Assembly: GCF_002954325.1 (NCBI RefSeq)
Contig: NZ_MQVX01000001.1
Coordinates: forward strand, 873,546 to 937,545
DNA length: 64,000 nucleotides
Reading direction: 5' to 3'
Source: Aureicoccus marinus
Lineage (GTDB): Bacteria; Bacteroidota; Bacteroidia; Flavobacteriales; Flavobacteriaceae
In this document: one piece after another, positions 2,067 to 12,879 of the stretch
Layout: the number at the start of each line of letters is the position of its first letter
Numbering within the stretch: position 1 is the stretch's first letter
Position numbers and translations under genes: made by a program
Notes under the pieces: generated by a model
Seen by the model: only the letters and a program-made list of their open reading frames with translations
Told to the model about the DNA's origin: nothing
Databases searched by the model: none

Positions 2067-3299
2067 CTACGGATTTTTGTTCTTCTCGGCAATGTAGCGG
2101 CTTAAGTACTCGGTACTCCTCAGGCGGTGATGCCAAAGGGTTTGTTGGAGAAGGCGCTTTTTTCTGTGTTGATCTAAATCATGCAATTCTTGCCCTAGTC
2201 TTTGGTCTAAATCGGCATGGCCTTTCGTCGCTGACCAATTGGCGTTAAAGTAGTTTGAAATGAGGCCTTGCTTCTCTTCCCAAATCACTCTTGATTGGTA
2301 GAGCTCTATTGCATTAGCGATAAGCTCTTCCGCTTTATCCCCGCAGAATCCCGGGAACCCCTGAGGTTCCGTAAGCCCCTCTACCCCTTGACTAGTGCTT
2401 ATACTTGGGCATCCCGCTCGCATACCCTCGGCCAGTTTGCCTTTTATTCCCGCCCCATACCGTAAGGGAAGCAGGTTTACACGGTATTTTTGAAGTGATT
2501 CATTCAGGTCAGAGCAGTGGCCTCGAAACGATAAACCTTTGACTTTTTGAAAGGACTGAATGGTATGGCTGGGCCAGTAACTCCCATAGATGTGACATTC
2601 TGCCTGGGGAAGTTCTTTGTGTATGGCCGGCCAGAGATCTTTTGCCAGCCAGTTTACGGCATCCTTATTTGGTTCGTGTTTGCCGTTTCCTATAAAGACG
2701 AAGTGTTCTCTTTCGCTAAAGTCACACCGCCAGCCATTATCAGTGAGCTCCTCATACATAAAAGGAAGCACAAGACTGCTCTGTGCTAAATCGGGAAGCT
2801 CTGCCTTGAGCCATTGCAGTTCAAAATGAGAGACCAGCAAGTTCAGGTCAGACCGCAACAGACACCCGATTTCTCTGTGGGTGATCGTTTGCTGTCTCCA
2901 CAAATCCGGACCAAAGGGGATCTCTTGTTTAAAAGCTAATCTTCGGGTATCCCTTAAGGAATGTAAGTCTTCGGTATTCAGGATCTGGAAAGCCTGGGGA
3001 GCTACTTCCTTTACTCTCCAGCTGAATTGTTCTTCCACCATAAAGCGGTCATAGACGACGACTTCGGGTTGGAGCTCTTTGACCCATTGGTTAAAAAGGT
3101 CAGAATTGAGTTCAATCACCCGGGTTTCAATTCCAAGACTCTTTAAGTCAGCTGAGTGTACGTTTTTTGCAGCGGTTGAAGCAAAGTAAACTTGGGTGGA
3201 ATGCTGAAGGAAAAACTGCAGAAGTTGCATCATACGGACCCCTGCCGCAGTGGATTCGGGTTCCGGCCAGTTCTTTCCTATGACGAGTACCCGATTCAT
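2067..3299 (-). CDS. GT-B fold glycosyltransferase (GT4-like)
   Basis: This is a 410-residue soluble protein with a Rossmann-like start (RVLVIGKNW) and a C-terminal half of the GT4 type. HFVFIGNGKHEPNKDAV (199-215) begins the second Rossmann domain. GAGIKGKLAEGMRAGCPSI (282-300) is the nucleotide-sugar-binding signature seen in Glyco_trans_1_4 proteins. The N-terminal residues PEPESTAAGVRMMQL resemble the acceptor-side loop of the same family. Donor and acceptor sugars cannot be read from the sequence. It sits 7 bases behind the helicase gene and ahead of menB, and neither neighbour tells its substrate. A role in surface glycan synthesis is an inference. Confidence 0.8.
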   Translation of the reverse strand: MNRVLVIGKNWPEPESTAAGVRMMQLLQFFLQHSTQVYFASTAAKNVHSADLKSLGIETRVIELNSDLFNQWVKELQPEVVVYDRFMVEEQFSWRVKEVAPQAFQILNTEDLHSLRDTRRLAFKQEIPFGPDLWRQQTITHREIGCLLRSDLNLLVSHFELQWLKAELPDLAQSSLVLPFMYEELTDNGWRCDFSEREHFVFIGNGKHEPNKDAVNWLAKDLWPAIHKELPQAECHIYGSYWPSHTIQSFQKVKGLSFRGHCSDLNESLQKYRVNLLPLRYGAGIKGKLAEGMRAGCPSISTSQGVEGLTEPQGFPGFCGDKAEELIANAIELYQSRVIWEEKQGLISNYFNANWSATKGHADLDQRLGQELHDLDQHRKKRLLQQTLWHHRLRSTEYLSRYIAEKNKNP

Positions 3300-5056: not shown

Positions 5057-5922
5057 ATGAGGCAGCTCAAAATAATCAAGCAAGTAACCAACCGTGAATC
5101 CAAATCCTTAGACAAGTACCTACAAGACATTAGCAAGATCGAATTGATCACTGCTCAGGAAGAAGTTGTTCTGGCACAGAAGATTAAGCAGGGGGATCAA
5201 GAGGCCTTAGAGAAGCTAACCAATGCCAACCTTCGCTTTGTTGTATCGGTGGCTAAACAGTACCAAAATCAAGGCTTGAAGTTGCCGGATTTGATCAACG
5301 AAGGCAACTTGGGCTTGGTAAAAGCGGCTCAGCGCTTTGATGAAACCAGAGGATTTAAGTTTATTTCTTATGCGGTGTGGTGGATTCGTCAATCCATTTT
5401 ACAAGCATTGGCAGAACAATCTCGGGTCGTGCGTCTTCCTTTGAACAAAATTGGATCGATCAACAAGATCAATAAAACCTTTTCTTATCTAGAGCAAGCG
5501 CATGAGCGTCCTCCTTCAGCGGAAGAAATCGCTAAGGAGCTCGATATGACGGTTACTGAGGTCAAGCAATCCCTCAAACACTCTGGCCGCCATGTTTCTA
5601 TGGACGCCCCTCTGAAAGAAGGGGAAACTTCCAGCCTGTACGACGTGATGAATACAGAGGAGTCTCCTAAGCCAGACAAAGGCTTAATGCACGAGTCTCT
5701 TAATCTTGAAATTAATCGGGCATTGGATACCTTGTCGCCTCGAGAGGCTGATGTAGTTCGTTTGTACTACGGAATCGGCGAACAGCATCCATGACTTTGG
5801 AAGAAATCGGGTCTACATTTGACCTCACCCGAGAGCGGGTTCGACAGATTCGTGAAAAAGCGATTCGAAAACTCAGACACAGTTCAAAAAGTAAAATCCT
5901 AAAAACCTACTTAGGTTCCTAA
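5057..5922 (+). CDS. rpoD: Housekeeping RNA polymerase sigma factor (sigma-70/SigA), frameshifted in this sequence
   Basis: This is the short primary sigma factor typical of Bacteroidota, which lacks region 1.1. Region 1.2 ([15 protein letters not shown]), region 2 ([13 protein letters not shown] through [15 protein letters not shown]), region 3 and region 4.1 are intact. After GIGEQHP the first frame stops at 5792-5794. The next frame, from 5791 to 5922, encodes the missing region 4.2 helix-turn-helix ([19 protein letters not shown]). One extra A after CATCC restores a continuous 288-residue protein of normal family length. The gene is essential, and the -35-binding helix would be lost, so a base-calling deletion is the likely cause. 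A strong terminator follows directly. Confidence 0.95.
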
Positions 5923-5958
5923 AACGAAAAGAGCCCCATCGTCGGGGCTCTTTTCGTT
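5923..5958 (+). terminator. rpoD terminator, usable in both directions
   Basis: A perfect 15-bp stem pairs 5923-5937 with 5944-5958 around a 6-base loop. The GC-rich core is GAGCCCC, and the A/T-rich outer part supplies a U-tract on either strand. It begins immediately after the rpoD stop codon and also lies 15 bases past the minus-strand micro-ORF at 5974. Confidence 0.9.
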
Positions 5959-5973
5959 AAAGACATGAAAATC

Positions 5974-6075
5974 TTAGGAATAACTCAGTTGGTTGATATT
6001 GTAATTCGCGAGGATTTCGTTGAGGTCCTTTATAAAATTCATGTAGGCGGAATTTTCAAGGTTTTGATTTTTCAT
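5974..6075 (-). CDS. Micropeptide, 33 codons, paralogue of the upstream micro-ORF
   Basis: A short ORF starts with ATG at 6075 and stops with TAA at 5974-5976. The product begins MKNQNLENSAYMNFIKDL and ends with NEIL, a polar stretch and NQLSYS. It has no signal peptide or membrane segment. It aligns without gaps to the neighbouring 32-residue ORF at 6094-6192 over the last 23 residues, with 10 identities including Y..F...LNEIL.N....QL. Four of the ten identical residues use different codons, which argues for protein-level selection. It lies between the YaiO-like gene and a terminator, so it is probably the last gene of that transcript. I recognise no family and assign no function. Confidence 0.6.
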   Translation of the reverse strand: MKNQNLENSAYMNFIKDLNEILANYNINQLSYS

Positions 6076-6093
6076 AGTTGAGGCAATTGGGGG

Positions 6094-6192
6094 TTAGAGA
6101 TTGTCTAGCTGTGCGAGCTCGTTATTGCTTAATATTTCGTTGAGTTCTTGTAAAAACAGGAGGTATTCCTCTCCATAAGTGTCGTATAACAT
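6094..6192 (-). CDS. Micropeptide, 32 codons, paralogue of the downstream micro-ORF
   Basis: ATG is at 6192 and TAA at 6094-6096. The product is acidic, starts MLYDTYGEEYLLFLQ, has a central ELNEIL and ends AQLDNL. It is predicted to form one amphipathic helix with no export signal. It shares the Y..F...LNEIL.N....QL pattern with the ORF that follows 18 bases later. The two ORFs sit 154 bases behind the outer-membrane barrel gene at 6347 on the same strand. Tandem duplication with a conserved core and drifted codons is the main evidence that both are translated. The function is unknown; a small regulator, adaptor or antitoxin-like peptide are possibilities only. Confidence 0.6.
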   Translation of the reverse strand: MLYDTYGEEYLLFLQELNEILSNNELAQLDNL

Positions 6193-6346
6193 GTAGGTGC
6201 AGTTTTAGTTTGATTTGGGATCATACTGGATTAAACCTAAATCAGAATAAAAGGGAACCCAATAATTTGTGGTGAAGAGCGAAGAAGTTGTTGTAAAACC
6301 CCTCAAATGCGCAGTGAAGTTGGTCGGTTTTTTTGAGCTTTTTACC

Positions 6347-7471
6347 CTAAAAACCCCATTGATATTGGATGCCCAAGGTTGCTGACCAGGTGTAATTGTC
6401 TGGTAAAAAAGGCAATTCAAGGCGATCTGCTCTCAGATCGATTCTATACCCTGTTTTGCTTTCTTGATTCCATTGGTTATACCCTAAACTCAGGAATTGT
6501 TGTTGAATGTAGAGTTGGGTTTGGGTGGCGATTGCTCCGTTGAGGAATTGTTGTTGAAATTCTGTGTCGTAACCAGCACCGAGCTCCAGGTCCAGGTATT
6601 GGAAGGCCGTTTTGAGGTACTTCCGTGTTTTTATGCTGGCCGAAATACCAGGTCTGCCCTGCTCTTTTGGCACAAAAAAGGCGCGAAGAGAACTGTAGTA
6701 ATTTCCGTAATAGTAACCGGTAGACACGGTATAGATCCCCACATTACCCTCGGCAAAAGAAAGGAATCGAGCGCCCAAGGAGGCTTCCCAGGCATTGGGA
6801 AGGTTGGTGAAGTACTCCAAGCCCGCTCTGTGAGTCGGGAAAAGAGACGTGCCAGAATAGCCATAATTGACGTACAGATAGGCCTTATCCGAAAGCTTGG
6901 GGTACCAATCGGACTCGATTTGAAGGGCATTCTCTTCAAAACGGTAAGCGTAATTCGCTCGTAGTAGAACCGAGCCTTTGTCATATTTACAGCTGACTCC
7001 CAAGCTATTTTGAAACTGAGGAGTATAGTATTCTGTAAATACACGACTTTGCGCTGCGGTATTGATTCTGAATTCTTGTTGGGAAGGCAAATCTTGAAGT
7101 TCCTTGTCTTGAAGACTGGTCCAGGCCTTGCCCCGGTGTAAGGCCTCAGTCAGTCCTTCTCGGTACTGTAAAAGCGCTTGGTGATCCGGATTGAATCGCA
7201 AGGATTTATGAAGAAGTCCCAAGGCGATTTGGGGATTCCCTTCTTGGAGTTCTAGCTCTACAGCCGCGATCCAATAAGGGAGCTTTCCCCGGCTTTTGGA
7301 TGTGATTTGGTTCAGGGTTTGGCGGGTTTCCTCTACCCCATCCTTCTTGTAAGATTCCGTTAGCCAAAGGGTAGCGTCTTCCAGTAGTTGATCAGAGGAA
7401 GCAAGCGCCAAGCCCTTCTGGGCATTGAGGCCACCACAAAACAGCAATAAGATTAGGAGGATCTTTTTCAT
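6347..7471 (-). CDS. YaiO-like outer-membrane beta-barrel protein with TPR-type N-terminal region
   Basis: The start at 7471 (MKKILLILLLFCGGLNAQ) gives a classic signal peptide. An upstream in-frame ATG at 7492 would overlap the glycosyltransferase. Residues 25-130 of the mature protein are helical and TPR-like (WIAAVELELQEGNPQIALGLL). The C-terminal 230 residues alternate aromatic and polar positions as in a beta-barrel and end in a terminal aromatic strand (IQYQWGF). This layout matches the YaiO family. Its place directly after a GT2 polymer synthase (1-base gap) suggests it is the exit pore or surface anchor for the glycan, comparable in role to PgaA. The family assignment is fairly safe; the export role is inferred. 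Confidence 0.82.
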   Translation of the reverse strand: MKKILLILLLFCGGLNAQKGLALASSDQLLEDATLWLTESYKKDGVEETRQTLNQITSKSRGKLPYWIAAVELELQEGNPQIALGLLHKSLRFNPDHQALLQYREGLTEALHRGKAWTSLQDKELQDLPSQQEFRINTAAQSRVFTEYYTPQFQNSLGVSCKYDKGSVLLRANYAYRFEENALQIESDWYPKLSDKAYLYVNYGYSGTSLFPTHRAGLEYFTNLPNAWEASLGARFLSFAEGNVGIYTVSTGYYYGNYYSSLRAFFVPKEQGRPGISASIKTRKYLKTAFQYLDLELGAGYDTEFQQQFLNGAIATQTQLYIQQQFLSLGYNQWNQESKTGYRIDLRADRLELPFLPDNYTWSATLGIQYQWGF

Positions 7472-7472
7472 A

Positions 7473-8900
7473 TTAGGCTTTACTGAATCCACGGCGGGTC
7501 ATGGCGCCCCAGCCGGATTGAATCTTGAACAGTTTCTTGTAGTTCGCTTTAATCGCTGCCCAGACGACCAATGGATGAAACGAGAAAGGCTCGATGAGCG
7601 CGCAGAGGGTCAGTATGAGCAGGTCTTTTGGGCGGGTGTATTGGTTGTACGTGTACACATCCCATAGCAAGGCATAGATCGAAAACATGACCGTAAACAG
7701 GTAAACTGTGGCGGTAATGGCCAAAAAGAACGAACTATTAATCACACCCAAAAAGAAACAGAGAATAATCAGCCCGTAGCCGAGGAATTCCAGTATAGGC
7801 GATAACCATTCGTAAAAAAGCCAATAGGGATAACTGATCATTCCTAAGCGTCCATAGGCCGGATTAAAGAGCATCTTCCTGTGCTTGCTGAGGGTTTCCA
7901 TATTTCCTCTGGCCCAGCGGTCCCTCTGTTTGAGCAAGACTTCTGTGGTTTCGGGAACCTCGGTCCAACAGAGCGGGTCCGGGATGTACTCCACGGTATA
8001 GGGAGCGGAACGGTCGTGCATATAGCGACGCATTTTAAAGACAATTTCCATGTCTTCCCCTACTGTATCTGTATCATAGCCCCCCACGGCTGTTGCAATT
8101 TTCCGATTAAAAAAACCAAAGGCTCCGGAGATAATAAGCAGGCTGTCAATTCTACCCCAGGCCATTCGTCCTAACAAAAATGAACGGGTGTATTCCAGCA
8201 ACTGAAAGCGCGCAAGCCAGTTCTCTGGTAATCGAATTTCTTCAAGCTTTCCGCCGTCAATTTTACAGGAGTTGGCCACGCGAATGACCCCTCCAACAGC
8301 AATCACTTCTTTTTGTGTTCTTTGCGAAAATGCCTTGACCACGTGCAAAAGGGCATCAGGCAACAGCAAGCAGTCTACATCAATACAACCGACATAATCC
8401 TTATCGGAGAGGTACATGCCTGCATTAAGGGCATCGGACTTCCCTCCATTCTCTTTATCAATGACCACCAACTTTGAGAAGGAAGCCCGGGTGGATCGGT
8501 AAACGCCGCGAATAGGTTTGGAACGCTCCATAAGCGGCTTGGTATTCGGATCCAAGACCAGATCATACGCTTCGATTACTTTTTCTAAGGTGTTGTCTTT
8601 GCTTCCGTCATTCACGACCATGACTTCGTAGTTCACGTAGTGAAGAGAAAGCAGAGATCGGATGTTTTCAACGATGGTGGCTCCCTCGTTGTAGGCCGGT
8701 GCGATGATGGTAATTGATGGAGCCAAAGGCGAGGCCATGATACTCTCTAAATTTCCAAAGCTGTTCTTGTGGATGTAGTGCAAGGAATTGCGGGTAGAAA
8801 AATACCCCATCAGCAAAAAGCCAATGACCAGAAAACTGGTAAATACCATAAAGAGTGCATTGATGAAATGCACCACAAAATGTTCTGGATTAAACGCCAT
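7473..8900 (-). CDS. Membrane glycosyltransferase family 2, PgaC/cellulose-synthase-like processive enzyme
   Basis: This 475-residue inner-membrane polymerase has one N-terminal membrane helix (residues 9-33), a cytoplasmic GT2 domain and about four C-terminal membrane helices. The catalytic set is complete: VVNDGS with Asp98, the DxD motif DVD (174-176), GED (281-283) as catalytic base region, and QRDRW (325-329), the QxxRW signature of processive synthases. The tail W..M.RRGF is typical of PgaC-like enzymes. The polymer could be poly-N-acetylglucosamine or another beta-linked glycan; no deacetylase is nearby to decide. It overlaps the HEAT-repeat gene by 11 bases and is followed by a YaiO-like barrel, so synthesis, control and export seem co-expressed. 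Confidence 0.9.
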   Translation of the reverse strand: MAFNPEHFVVHFINALFMVFTSFLVIGFLLMGYFSTRNSLHYIHKNSFGNLESIMASPLAPSITIIAPAYNEGATIVENIRSLLSLHYVNYEVMVVNDGSKDNTLEKVIEAYDLVLDPNTKPLMERSKPIRGVYRSTRASFSKLVVIDKENGGKSDALNAGMYLSDKDYVGCIDVDCLLLPDALLHVVKAFSQRTQKEVIAVGGVIRVANSCKIDGGKLEEIRLPENWLARFQLLEYTRSFLLGRMAWGRIDSLLIISGAFGFFNRKIATAVGGYDTDTVGEDMEIVFKMRRYMHDRSAPYTVEYIPDPLCWTEVPETTEVLLKQRDRWARGNMETLSKHRKMLFNPAYGRLGMISYPYWLFYEWLSPILEFLGYGLIILCFFLGVINSSFFLAITATVYLFTVMFSIYALLWDVYTYNQYTRPKDLLILTLCALIEPFSFHPLVVWAAIKANYKKLFKIQSGWGAMTRRGFSKA

Positions 8901-10785
8901 TCTTGGGGGAAGCTTCGTTGTTTAAGGCAAAATCATTCAGATCAAACTGAAAATCAAAACCAGAAACTTCAAAGTCCTCTTCTGGAGCAGAAATGGCTTG
9001 AGCCTCTTGGGAATATTTGGCCAGTATTTGCAAGCGCCAGGCGTACTCGTCTTCTTCCGATACTTCCAAGAGCCGCGCTTCTATGCGCTCTACGGCCCGA
9101 GAAGCCAATTTAGAAATCAGTTTGTCTTCGTTTGTTAGGAAAGGCTTAAGAAAGGCGATCTCTTTGCGATCTCCAATGGCTCCTGCCTCTTGTATTAGGT
9201 TCTTTTTTAGGTCATTGTCTGGGGTGAATTCGATCAGCTGATAAAAAATACTGTGTTCGGATTCGTGTACTTCCTCTACAACACGTGCCGTTGCAGCCCG
9301 CGTATCGGCTTGAATAGATTTGAGGAGCTGAAAGGCCTGGAACTGGGTTTCGTCGTCCGTTTCAAATTCGACAATATATTCCAGCAATTCCAATTCTCGT
9401 GGATTACCGAGGTAGCTAAAATTCCGGATAAAGTTTCTTCGCTCCTCCAGGTCAAGGCGTTGGTAAAAAAGTTTGTAGTCTTCTTCTTGAGCGGAGCTCT
9501 CTTCCAAAGGTTTGACCGTATGGACAACCCCCAACTGCTCCTCCACTTGGTCTTCTAAATCCCCGTCGAGGAGATTTAGTTCGAAGTTGGGCTCCAAGGG
9601 TTCTTCCGGCTTGGCTTCTTTTGACTTAAGCGGTTTTCTGGTTTTGACAGGGAATTCGACCTCTTCATAAAAGGAAACTTCGGCAACTTCAAAGGACTGA
9701 CGGTCATCGGCCCATTGAGGCATTTCGTTGGCGTAGCTGAGTTTTACGGATTCCAGGTTGACCGAAGGCAATACCCGATCCGGTTCGATTTGGTTGATGG
9801 CCGCTAGGGCTTTTGACGCAATGAGGAAATCCTTGGACTGGGCAGCGCAATTTTCCAAAAATTCAATGTCCTCAGTACTTCCTAGTTGTCCGAAAGTGTC
9901 AAGAATGTCGAGTTTAAGATCAAGATCACACCCCTTGAATAGCTTTTCAAGTAGGGGCAGTGCGTCTTCAAATCCAAAATCGCGTATACATCGCAATGCT
10001 TCGTGACGGACTCGGAAGTCGATGTGTTTACTCAGTTCAATAATCGATTTTTTGCCATCATTCTGCTGAAAGTGCAGAATGAGTCGAAGCGCAAACAAGA
10101 CCGTGTCGGTATGACTCGAGAGGAGCCACTGTTTGAAGGCTGGGGGTTGATAGTCTGTCTTTTGCTCTAGGAGCTCAATCATCTTAAGTTGCTGCCACTG
10201 GCTGATTGCACTACGTGTTGTATTTAAGAAATAGTTGATTCCTTCGGTTTGAAGCTCGACAATAGCTAATTCAGATTGTTTGCGGATAATGCTTCTGCGG
10301 TCGTTTAGAAAACGGGTAATTGGAAAGTAGGCTTCAAGGACTTGCATTTGGGTCAGCTCATGGATTCCCTGCGATATCCTTGGCCAGCGCATGCTTTTGA
10401 GTTTGTCGTAGCAATCGTGATGCAACTGCAGATCTCGAAACAGTTGACGAACTGTATCGGCCGAATGACCTTCCAGGTCTTTGTGAAGGTCCAAGAGCAT
10501 TTCGCTCAAAAGTTTTCTGAAATAAGGACGAGCCAAATCGGCGCGAATCTTCACTTTAAGTCGTAGATAGGCCTTTTGTTCTTCAACAGGGTCCTCGTTG
10601 CTGTGAAATACGATATGGCTTATGGCTTCTGCCCATTCCTTTCGGAAATACGTCATCTCCGCCACTTTCCTCCTATTGATCATGCGCAACACGAAGATGG
10701 ACGTGAAATACGCAAGGCTGATCACTCCAAAAAGAAGAGCAAGGTCCCAGAGAAGGTTGGTATGTATTTGGGGGATAGAGTCCAA
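8890..10785 (-). CDS. Membrane-anchored HEAT-repeat protein
   Basis: One membrane helix near residues 11-34 (LALLFGVISLAYFTSIFVL) is followed by about 590 cytoplasmic residues made of paired helices. Several repeats have the HEAT pattern, for example FRVRHEALRCIRDFGFEDALPLLEK read as two helices with a central Asp/Arg, then LKLDILDTFGQLG. An acidic, low-complexity linker near residues 380-430 divides two repeat arrays. No catalytic motif is seen. Its 3' end overlaps the GT2 start by 11 bases, and a stand-alone receiver lies 9 bases upstream. A scaffold linking the receiver to the synthase is the natural reading, but it is inferred from gene order alone. Confidence 0.8.
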   Translation of the reverse strand: MDSIPQIHTNLLWDLALLFGVISLAYFTSIFVLRMINRRKVAEMTYFRKEWAEAISHIVFHSNEDPVEEQKAYLRLKVKIRADLARPYFRKLLSEMLLDLHKDLEGHSADTVRQLFRDLQLHHDCYDKLKSMRWPRISQGIHELTQMQVLEAYFPITRFLNDRRSIIRKQSELAIVELQTEGINYFLNTTRSAISQWQQLKMIELLEQKTDYQPPAFKQWLLSSHTDTVLFALRLILHFQQNDGKKSIIELSKHIDFRVRHEALRCIRDFGFEDALPLLEKLFKGCDLDLKLDILDTFGQLGSTEDIEFLENCAAQSKDFLIASKALAAINQIEPDRVLPSVNLESVKLSYANEMPQWADDRQSFEVAEVSFYEEVEFPVKTRKPLKSKEAKPEEPLEPNFELNLLDGDLEDQVEEQLGVVHTVKPLEESSAQEEDYKLFYQRLDLEERRNFIRNFSYLGNPRELELLEYIVEFETDDETQFQAFQLLKSIQADTRAATARVVEEVHESEHSIFYQLIEFTPDNDLKKNLIQEAGAIGDRKEIAFLKPFLTNEDKLISKLASRAVERIEARLLEVSEEDEYAWRLQILAKYSQEAQAISAPEEDFEVSGFDFQFDLNDFALNNEASPKNGV

Positions 10786-10794
10786 AAGGGCTGT

Positions 10795-11181
10795 TTAGTT
10801 GATAGCGTCAGGGTTTCTTATTTTTCCCATAACTCGGGCGATCCTCACTTGGAGTTCAGATGGGCTGACCGGTTTAGAAATAAAGTCGTCGGCGCCTAGA
10901 GAAAATGCTTTGAGGATGTTTTCTTCATTCGATGCAGACGAAATCAACAATATGGGAAGATCCGATCGCAGAATGTTGCGGACAAAATCGACCAGTTCCA
11001 TCCCAGAGAAATAGGGCATCATGATGTCGGTAATGATCATGTCGATGCTGTTGTCTGCCAAAGATTTTTTTACCTGTCGGCCGTCTTCTGCCGTACTGAC
11101 CCTGTACCCTGCTTTTTCTAGCTTGTACTTGAGTAATGAGGCCAACATGGGATCGTCTTCTCCGAGTAATAAGTGTTTCAT
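10795..11181 (-). CDS. Single-domain response regulator
   Basis: This is a 128-residue CheY-like receiver with no output domain. The start at 11181 (MKHLLLGEDD) is preferred, because the longer frame overlaps the kinase gene and adds residues outside the domain. The acidic pocket is Glu8-Asp9, the phospho-acceptor is Asp52 (IITDIMMP), the switch Ser lies in LLISSAS, and Lys103 (ISKPVSP) completes the set. It lies between a hybrid kinase that ends in a phosphotransfer domain and a HEAT-repeat protein. It is therefore the likely end point of the phosphorelay, acting by protein contact rather than by binding DNA. Confidence 0.92.
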   Translation of the reverse strand: MKHLLLGEDDPMLASLLKYKLEKAGYRVSTAEDGRQVKKSLADNSIDMIITDIMMPYFSGMELVDFVRNILRSDLPILLISSASNEENILKAFSLGADDFISKPVSPSELQVRIARVMGKIRNPDAIN

Positions 11182-11191
11182 AGGCAGATGG

Positions 11192-12879
11192 TTAATTTGA
11201 TGATTTAAGATGTGCAATTTCCCATTCCAAAGCCCTTTCCGTGGCGGGATAGGCTTCGAGGAAATGGCTGTATAAGGATTCCAAATAGGTCAGCGATTCG
11301 TTCTCTTTTGCACTTTCATCCAATTGATCACATAATGCATGCAGCTCTGCCGCTTGAATCATCAAAAGGCTAGATTTGACCTTGTGTGCCGCAAAGCTTA
11401 CTCCTTGTGCATTGCTCGCTTGCAAGTGAATTCGGCACTGCCCTAGAAATTCAAGAATATTCTGCTTAAAGAGATCGGCAAGTTCATCCAGTAAATCCAA
11501 GTTGCCCTGGCATTCCTGCAGCAGTCCACTGAGGTCCACCAAGCGTTTTTGTGGTGGCTTGGGATCGTTGTTGAGCGCTCTTTGAATGGTTTCCAGAAGT
11601 TCAGTTCCAGCAAAAGGCTTTTCTAGAGTAAATTGTATTCCATGCTGTACCGCTTTTTCTTGAGATTCTTTGGTCCATTGGGCGCTACAAACAATAAATT
11701 GAGGTTGTTCTTGCTGTGGGTAATGCTGGTATCTTGATAGAAATTCCCAGGCGCTAAAATCTGGAAGTTTGCAATCCAGAATTACGAGGTCGTAGTTTTT
11801 ATCTAATAGCGCATCCAATCCTTGTTGCGCCGTATAGGTGGTTTGCGTTATAGCCCCGGTCTCCTTTAGCCGGTGTTGAAGCCAGCGCTGTTGTAAAAAA
11901 TCGTCTTCAATCAGCAGGATATTCTTGCCTTTGAATGAAGTGACCCCAGGCTTCTCTTCCTTCACTGCTGGAGGAGTCAATTCAACCGCAACGGAGGCCT
12001 TCTTGGCGTAAGGCAGTATAACTGAAAAGGTGGACCCCTCTCCTATTTTACTCTCTACAACGAGGCATCCCCCCAATTGTTCTACCAATCTTTTACGATG
12101 GCTAGCCCTAGTCCTTTGCCCTCTTTTTCGTGTAGGCCTCTGGCGTAGGCATCAAAAATGCGTTCCAGCTCTTCGTCTGCAATCCCAATCCCTGTATCGG
12201 CAATCCGAAATTCCAAATAACAGAGCTCGTCTTTATTTTCGGCCACGCGTACATCAAAATGGATACGGCCTTGTTCGACGTATTTAACGGCATTGCCCAA
12301 GATGTTGAGAAGGATTTGTGATAGACTGGAGGAATCTCCCCATAAATAGGTCGGCACACCCGGATCTATACTACATTGAAGTTGGACGTCTTTTTGCATC
12401 AACAGGGTTTTGCATAAAAAGACCTGGTCGTTAATCAAGGCGGGTAAATTAAATTCTATCTTATTTTTTGGGGACTTCTGAGAACCGATGGCACTGAGTT
12501 CAAGAATTTCTCCACTCAGGTTTAATAAACTCTGCGCAGCCTTGTGAATTCCTATGGTCCATTCTTGCTGTTCTTTGGTCAAGGAGGAATCCCGCAGTAG
12601 ATCAGTCATACTAACTATTCCCGCCAGTGGCGTACGAATCTCGTGCCCGACCTCTGCCAGCAACTTCCAGGATTGCTTGAGTTCTGGAGGGTTGGCTGAA
12701 GGGACTTGTTTTTCTGGTTGTTCTCCCCAAAGGTGGTCTTTGAGTTGGTGCCCAAAGGAATGAAATTCTGTTTTCAATTGTTTCGCCTCTTCCGCTGTAA
12801 GGGATTGAAAGGAGAAATGAGAGAGTCCTTTCTCGAGGTCTTGCAATTGTTCCAAAAGCGCCTTGGAGTTGTCGGCCAT
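11192..12879 (-). CDS. Soluble hybrid sensor histidine kinase (HisKA-HATPase-REC-HPt), frameshifted in this sequence
   Basis: The N-terminal 264 codons hold a coiled-coil start, the H-box GHEIRTPLAG with His79, the N-box NILGNAVKY, DTGIGI and GKGLGLAI. The frame then stops at 12082-12084. The next frame continues without loss (RLVEQLGG) through a receiver (Asp369 in LVILDCKLPD, corrected numbering) and an HPt domain (His499 in AAHKVKSS). One more A in the A4 run at 12091-12094 restores a 562-residue protein. No membrane or extracellular sensor domain is present, so input is cytoplasmic or by protein partners. It is first in the polysaccharide operon and probably feeds the adjacent receiver. 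Confidence 0.9.

Follow-up and report, generated by a model that had tools for sequence, protein, structure and literature searches.

Two very short genes on the minus strand, here called A and B, were identified in a window of 64,000 nucleotides of the Aureicoccus marinus genome, next to a cassette of kinase, glycosyltransferase and outer-membrane genes (Table 1). The usual order at such loci is hybrid kinase, response regulator, HEAT-repeat protein, GT2 glycosyltransferase, LTA-synthase/sulfatase-like protein, YaiO, A, B and a convergent rpoD. The LTA-synthase/sulfatase-like membrane protein lies between GT2 and YaiO in most relatives (e.g., L041:12498-14885), and the window is without it. 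Both rpoD and the kinase gene are frameshifted in the assembly; since rpoD is expected to be essential, sequencing indels are the likely cause of these frameshifts.

Table 1. Features at the A-B locus, in window coordinates
Feature	Positions	Strand	Basis
rpoD-type sigma factor, convergent, frameshifted near 5780-5794 in the assembly	5057..5922	+	
Bidirectional intrinsic terminator, 15-bp stem, between B and rpoD	5923..5958	.	
Peptide B gene, 33 aa, MKNQNLENSAYMNFIKDLNEILANYNINQLSYS, paralogue of A	5974..6075	-	ORF, hhalign to A, pN/pS 0.28
Peptide A gene, 32 aa, MLYDTYGEEYLLFLQELNEILSNNELAQLDNL	6094..6192	-	ORF, orthologues, pN/pS 0.09
Conserved CCCAAATC element, -7 box to A start codon	6212..6219	-	
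Promoter-like TTG-N20-TAGGTTTA, sigma-A type of Flavobacteriia	6232..6262	-	Conserved geometry; -7 consensus from PMC9723704
Direct repeat TTTTACAACA-N-TTCACCACA with a half-site spacing of 21 bp, a putative site for a regulator	6268..6298	-	
YaiO outer-membrane beta-barrel protein	6347..7492	-	Pfam YaiO E 6e-46
GT2 glycosyltransferase, lost in several A/B-positive relatives	7473..8900	-	
Membrane-anchored HEAT-repeat protein	8890..10785	-	
Single-domain response regulator	10795..11217	-	
Hybrid histidine kinase, soluble, split into two ORFs by a frameshift at ~12082-12088	11192..12879	-	

Paralogy, selection and predicted transcription of A and B

A preliminary description of this DNA had presented the two ORFs as a tandem pair of paralogues, and its observations were reproduced: they lie in the same frame, 18 nt apart, and share a gap-free core of 23 residues with 10 identities, four of which (I, L, Q, L) use differing codons. 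The ungapped A/B score of 54 is the highest among 352 pairs of neighbouring same-strand small ORFs in the window (the runner-up scores 33) and was attained by 0/5000 shuffles. Furthermore, the profile-profile comparison (hhalign) gave a probability of 96% and an E value of 3e-9 over 24 columns. Judged by their sequences, A and B are genuine paralogous micropeptide genes. Both peptides are acidic (net charge −7 for A and −1 for B), a hydrophobic membrane segment is absent from both, and they look soluble.

The codon differences had been read as a sign of selection on the protein, and the comparison of 128 A genes and 113 B genes agrees with this: pN/pS is 0.09 for A and 0.28 for B, values of strong purifying selection, and synonymous differences are saturated. 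All of these genes start with ATG, and the reading frames are conserved in relatives rather than broken by stops or frameshifts, which was the test proposed in the preliminary description. Differences at the three codon positions amount to 0.17/0.04/0.50 for A and 0.31/0.21/0.54 for B, and the A-B intergenic spacer varies between 10 and 60 nt among loci. The excess at third positions, the pN/pS of A, the invariant ATG and the variable spacer all argue against the idea that this DNA works as RNA (a small RNA or a 3′ regulatory element) with incidental ORFs. Nothing specific speaks for that idea besides the conserved non-coding elements upstream of A, and we consider it very improbable.

The preliminary description had also placed the pair behind a YaiO gene and before a strong terminator. 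Both are present; the terminator, missed by a consensus scan, has a predicted fold of −29.4 kcal/mol (z −7.3) and faces both ways. The further proposal that A and B are the last genes of the kinase/GT2 transcript is not supported, as the pair has its own conserved promoter element, which persists in loci that have lost the operon or in which the module has been relocated. Upstream of A, an ACAACA-N15-ACCACA direct repeat is followed by TTG-N20-TAnGTTTA. The spacing of the half-sites is 21 bp in 67 of the 73 scored sites, and the distance from ACCACA to TAnGTTTA is 34 nt in 35/38. In 55/128 loci the repeat was left unscored for lack of a fit to the stringent half-site pattern; many of these do show the element on visual inspection, with a single base altered. 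A CCTAACCTA tract is also conserved, alongside CCCAAATC, in the stretch that separates the −7 box from the start codon of A.

The flavobacterial sigma-A −7 consensus is TAnnTTTG (PMC9723704), and the region upstream of A has the TTG and a −7 box of this type, with A instead of G as its final base. Across 40 A-positive genomes the exact promoter motif has 38 matches, of which no fewer than 28 lie at A, compared with 8 for the reversed control pattern. We read A-B as a regulated bicistronic unit of its own, with a predicted promoter and its own terminator.

A wider regulon of this motif was considered and rejected, since the extra sites inspected looked like chance, except for one in genome G131. 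There, on the minus strand from position 3095 of locus L211, the ACAACA-N15-ACCACA repeat occurs a second time, together with an A-like leader, ahead of a gene for a 269-aa protein whose start resembles a signal peptide.

Distribution of the pair and its independence from the polysaccharide genes

A search with the DNA of the yaiO-A-B stretch matched four other genera in the peptide region only, not in yaiO, and each of these four encodes both peptides. With the A profile, 48/299 sampled genomes of the same family were positive (E<1e-15), and B lies directly behind A in 47 of the 48, the exception being G080 (locus L084), with A only. More distant A-like relatives occur in G100 and G310 (E near 1e-13) and in G021 and G272 (near 1e-4 to 1e-3). 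Seeming losses of B in several Muricauda loci are a filter artefact where inspected: manual reading of five of them showed a B in which LNEIL is replaced by LKDML or LKDIL. A GTDB scan found 242 loci encoding A; the 80 listed include Maribacter, Allomuricauda/Flagellimonas/Muricauda, Croceivirga, Croceitalea, Zeaxanthinibacter and other genera. Phylum- and order-wide profile searches, in samples dominated by a few genera, gave no convincing match to A beyond the family.

A tree built from the adjacent DEAD-box helicase recovers the AB-positive rows as monophyletic (44 rows, support 100/99), and among the sampled rows G080 and the A-like-bearing G100 and G310 adjoin this clade. Ranking by helicase identity is a check less biased than the tree sampling. 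At identities of at least 76%, 43/43 sampled genomes are A-positive; as these are the closest genomes by an independent marker, no loss is seen inside the sampled clade. At 68-73% most genomes are A-negative, and the positives (G080, G100) indicate a patchy presence of A in the outgroup, with isolated A-only copies in lineages near the clade.

This constancy bears on whether the two tiny genes, side by side as they are, could be a small toxin or a toxin-antitoxin pair. Mobile toxin-antitoxin loci differ from a pair lost in 0/43 sampled clade genomes, and the acidic peptides have no hydrophobic membrane segment, in contrast to type I toxins, which are hydrophobic membrane peptides. The chance of a toxin function appears to be minimal.

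Several solitary copies were noted. Those at L087:9154-9252 and L088:9022-9120 are divergent A-like ORFs with neither kinase nor B; they lie just beyond the thioesterase/DUF2461 block by which the A/B cassette of clade members is flanked, and the solitary A-like gene of G021 and G272 has this position too. Those at L085:9866-9964 and L086:9534-9632 adjoin an 830-aa and a 170-aa (MSKRxLxKYL...) protein; a relative of the latter adjoins rpoD in many A/B loci.

Retention of A and B behind GT2 and YaiO, for which the preliminary description had suggested looking, is common but not universal. All 42 genomes with a GT2 orthologue carry A, and six A-positive genomes are without GT2. One is G080, an outgroup with a different kinase and without B; the other five (G073, G225, G234, G247 and G251; no GT2 match at E<=1e-80) are clade members in which GT2 and YaiO are gone from the locus and A and B are kept. 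These represent at least three separate losses, since the helicase tree places G073, G225 and G251 next to GT2-positive groups or within them. Moreover, three cassettes of other Flavobacteriaceae (L250, L251 and L253; GT2 identity 50-51%) have the same Hpt-RR-HEAT-GT2-sulfatase-YaiO order as the cassette beside A/B, but they differ in having a separate small Hpt-like protein, and an A/B-like ORF was not found in them. In a fourth locus (L254, GT2 identity 53%) YaiO stands apart from the rest of the cassette, and A/B are again absent.

As the peptides are kept without GT2 and are absent from related GT2 cassettes, they are not tied to the polysaccharide. This weighs on the proposal that A and B are co-transcribed cofactors or regulators of the GT2 synthase or the YaiO exporter, for which the carriage of A by every sampled GT2-orthologue genome and its position right behind YaiO in most loci can be cited. 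A synthase subunit would co-occur with the synthase and be lost with it; the five GT2-less clade members, the A/B-less cassettes of other genera and the promoter-like element of A-B all tell against this, and we reject such a role as improbable. Of the roles first suggested, a small regulator remains the best class and a membrane-synthase cofactor is disfavoured.

Kept intact, with their own promoter-like element, and outliving the neighbouring polysaccharide genes, A and B are real core genes of one branch of marine Flavobacteriaceae. Searches for A and B gave 0 matches in Pfam (E<=1) and in NCBIfam (E<=0.1), the A profile gave 0 matches in the PDB (E<=10), and a full-text literature search with the peptide string found no paper. 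A protein of 32 residues, strongly conserved across about 48 sampled genomes that mostly belong to different genera, and unmatched in the family databases consulted, illustrates how large a part of the core small proteome of marine Flavobacteriaceae may be missing from the catalogues.

The neighbouring kinase as a candidate partner

The domains of the hybrid kinase were read from an intact homologue (L049). Its N-terminal module of 50 residues occurs in 44/299 genomes, all 44 of them A-positive, and this module and the Hpt-like end are the kinase parts most often kept beside A/B. An Hpt-like domain was detected in nearly every 19-kb locus in which the kinase region is covered. GT2-less loci show decay of the kinase: L045 is without the H-box, and L063 and L068 are without a detectable kinase domain.

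The Muricauda group has a protein of 255-270 aa made of the N-terminal module and the Hpt-like part, with 51-71% identity to that of L068. In this Muricauda/Flagellimonas remnant (L068, L102-L180; e.g., L068:8457-9236) the phospho-His is replaced by Gln, with an invariant Cys-Gln; G251 is one of many species with such a remnant beside A/B. The predicted fold of the Hpt part has a pLDDT of ~90, and its top PDB matches are Hpt proteins, with weak E values (best 0.027) and a probability of 1.0. We interpret this protein as a phospho-dead, conserved remnant. Homology between A/B and the kinase N-terminus was considered as well; none was found, and the idea was rejected.

AlphaFold models A as one helix (residues 2-31) and places the B helix at residues 43-63 of an A-B fusion, built from the read-through fusions of in-frame loci; the pTM of the fusion is 0.29, so no contact between A and B is supported. 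The two peptides would be translated into soluble, acidic, mostly helical molecules, and these may modulate a conserved protein of the cytoplasm by binding to it, much as small-protein regulators do with sensor kinases. The likeliest partner would be the clade-specific soluble hybrid kinase, through its N-terminal module and/or Hpt-like domain, phospho-dead remnants included. Synthesis of the peptides is probably controlled by a regulator that binds the direct repeat, with LytTR-like spacing.

We put forward tentatively, at somewhat under an even chance, that A and B are acidic, helical micropeptides whose role is to bind and modulate a partner in the cytoplasm, for which the neighbouring kinase/Hpt protein is the most plausible candidate. 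Co-localisation, clade restriction and co-retention with A/B favour this partner. In most loci, the relocated one of L063 included, the pair adjoins the kinase, and it co-occurs with it, as would be expected of a kinase regulator; common descent within one clade accounts for part of this co-occurrence, and beyond the clade there are A-like copies that stand alone.

These copies are the main argument that A and B could instead be clade-core micropeptides acting on a different, more general conserved target (e.g., RNA polymerase, a sigma factor, the ribosome or a protease), the adjacency to the kinase being inherited gene order. In the four genomes with A-like peptides (G100, G310, G021 and G272) A persists with no such kinase found within 9 kb, and in two of them (G021, G272) it sits just past the block that flanks the cassette. 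Their Hpt-profile matches elsewhere are weak and non-specific, no better than those of some A-negative genomes. In addition, three A-positive genomes without the N-terminal module (G103, G311 and G152) keep A/B with an Hpt-like remnant alone. However, the kinase remnant, A and B have stayed together in L063 despite relocation: its 19-kb region contains no rpoD, helicase, GT2 or thioesterase block. No alternative partner gene travelling with A/B was found, and rpoD is likewise missing near A in L084 and at the solo copies. A different target is a serious alternative, and we give it and the kinase/Hpt partner about equal weight.

A bolder extension of the kinase/Hpt-partner reading, which we consider rather unlikely, is that A and B found a micropeptide family acting via a (pseudo)hybrid kinase, in which catalysis, phosphotransfer and polysaccharide output have decayed and the peptides and a phospho-dead Hpt scaffold are kept as a non-catalytic signalling module. 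The predicted dedicated promoter and the conserved Hpt protein beside A/B in Muricauda, putatively phospho-dead, make a compact, testable module.

Comparison with known systems

LytTR-type promoters have paired 9-bp direct repeats with 10-13 bp spacing (PMC11347149), and the element upstream of A is, like them, a direct repeat with a 21-bp period next to the −33 box. Unlike theirs, its half-sites are ACAACA and ACCACA; the match is one of spacing, and we do not claim membership.

A sequence relation of A/B to the small-protein kinase regulators MgrB, SafA and the DUF1127 proteins was not found. MgrB, SafA and the DUF1127 proteins that act on PhoR (PMC12501420) are short proteins that tune a sensor kinase by binding it; A and B are likewise short, and they lie beside a kinase gene. 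MgrB, described in PMC8404706 as a membrane protein of 47 aa, differs from A and B, which look soluble and acidic, form a paired duplicate and are putative binders of their kinase.
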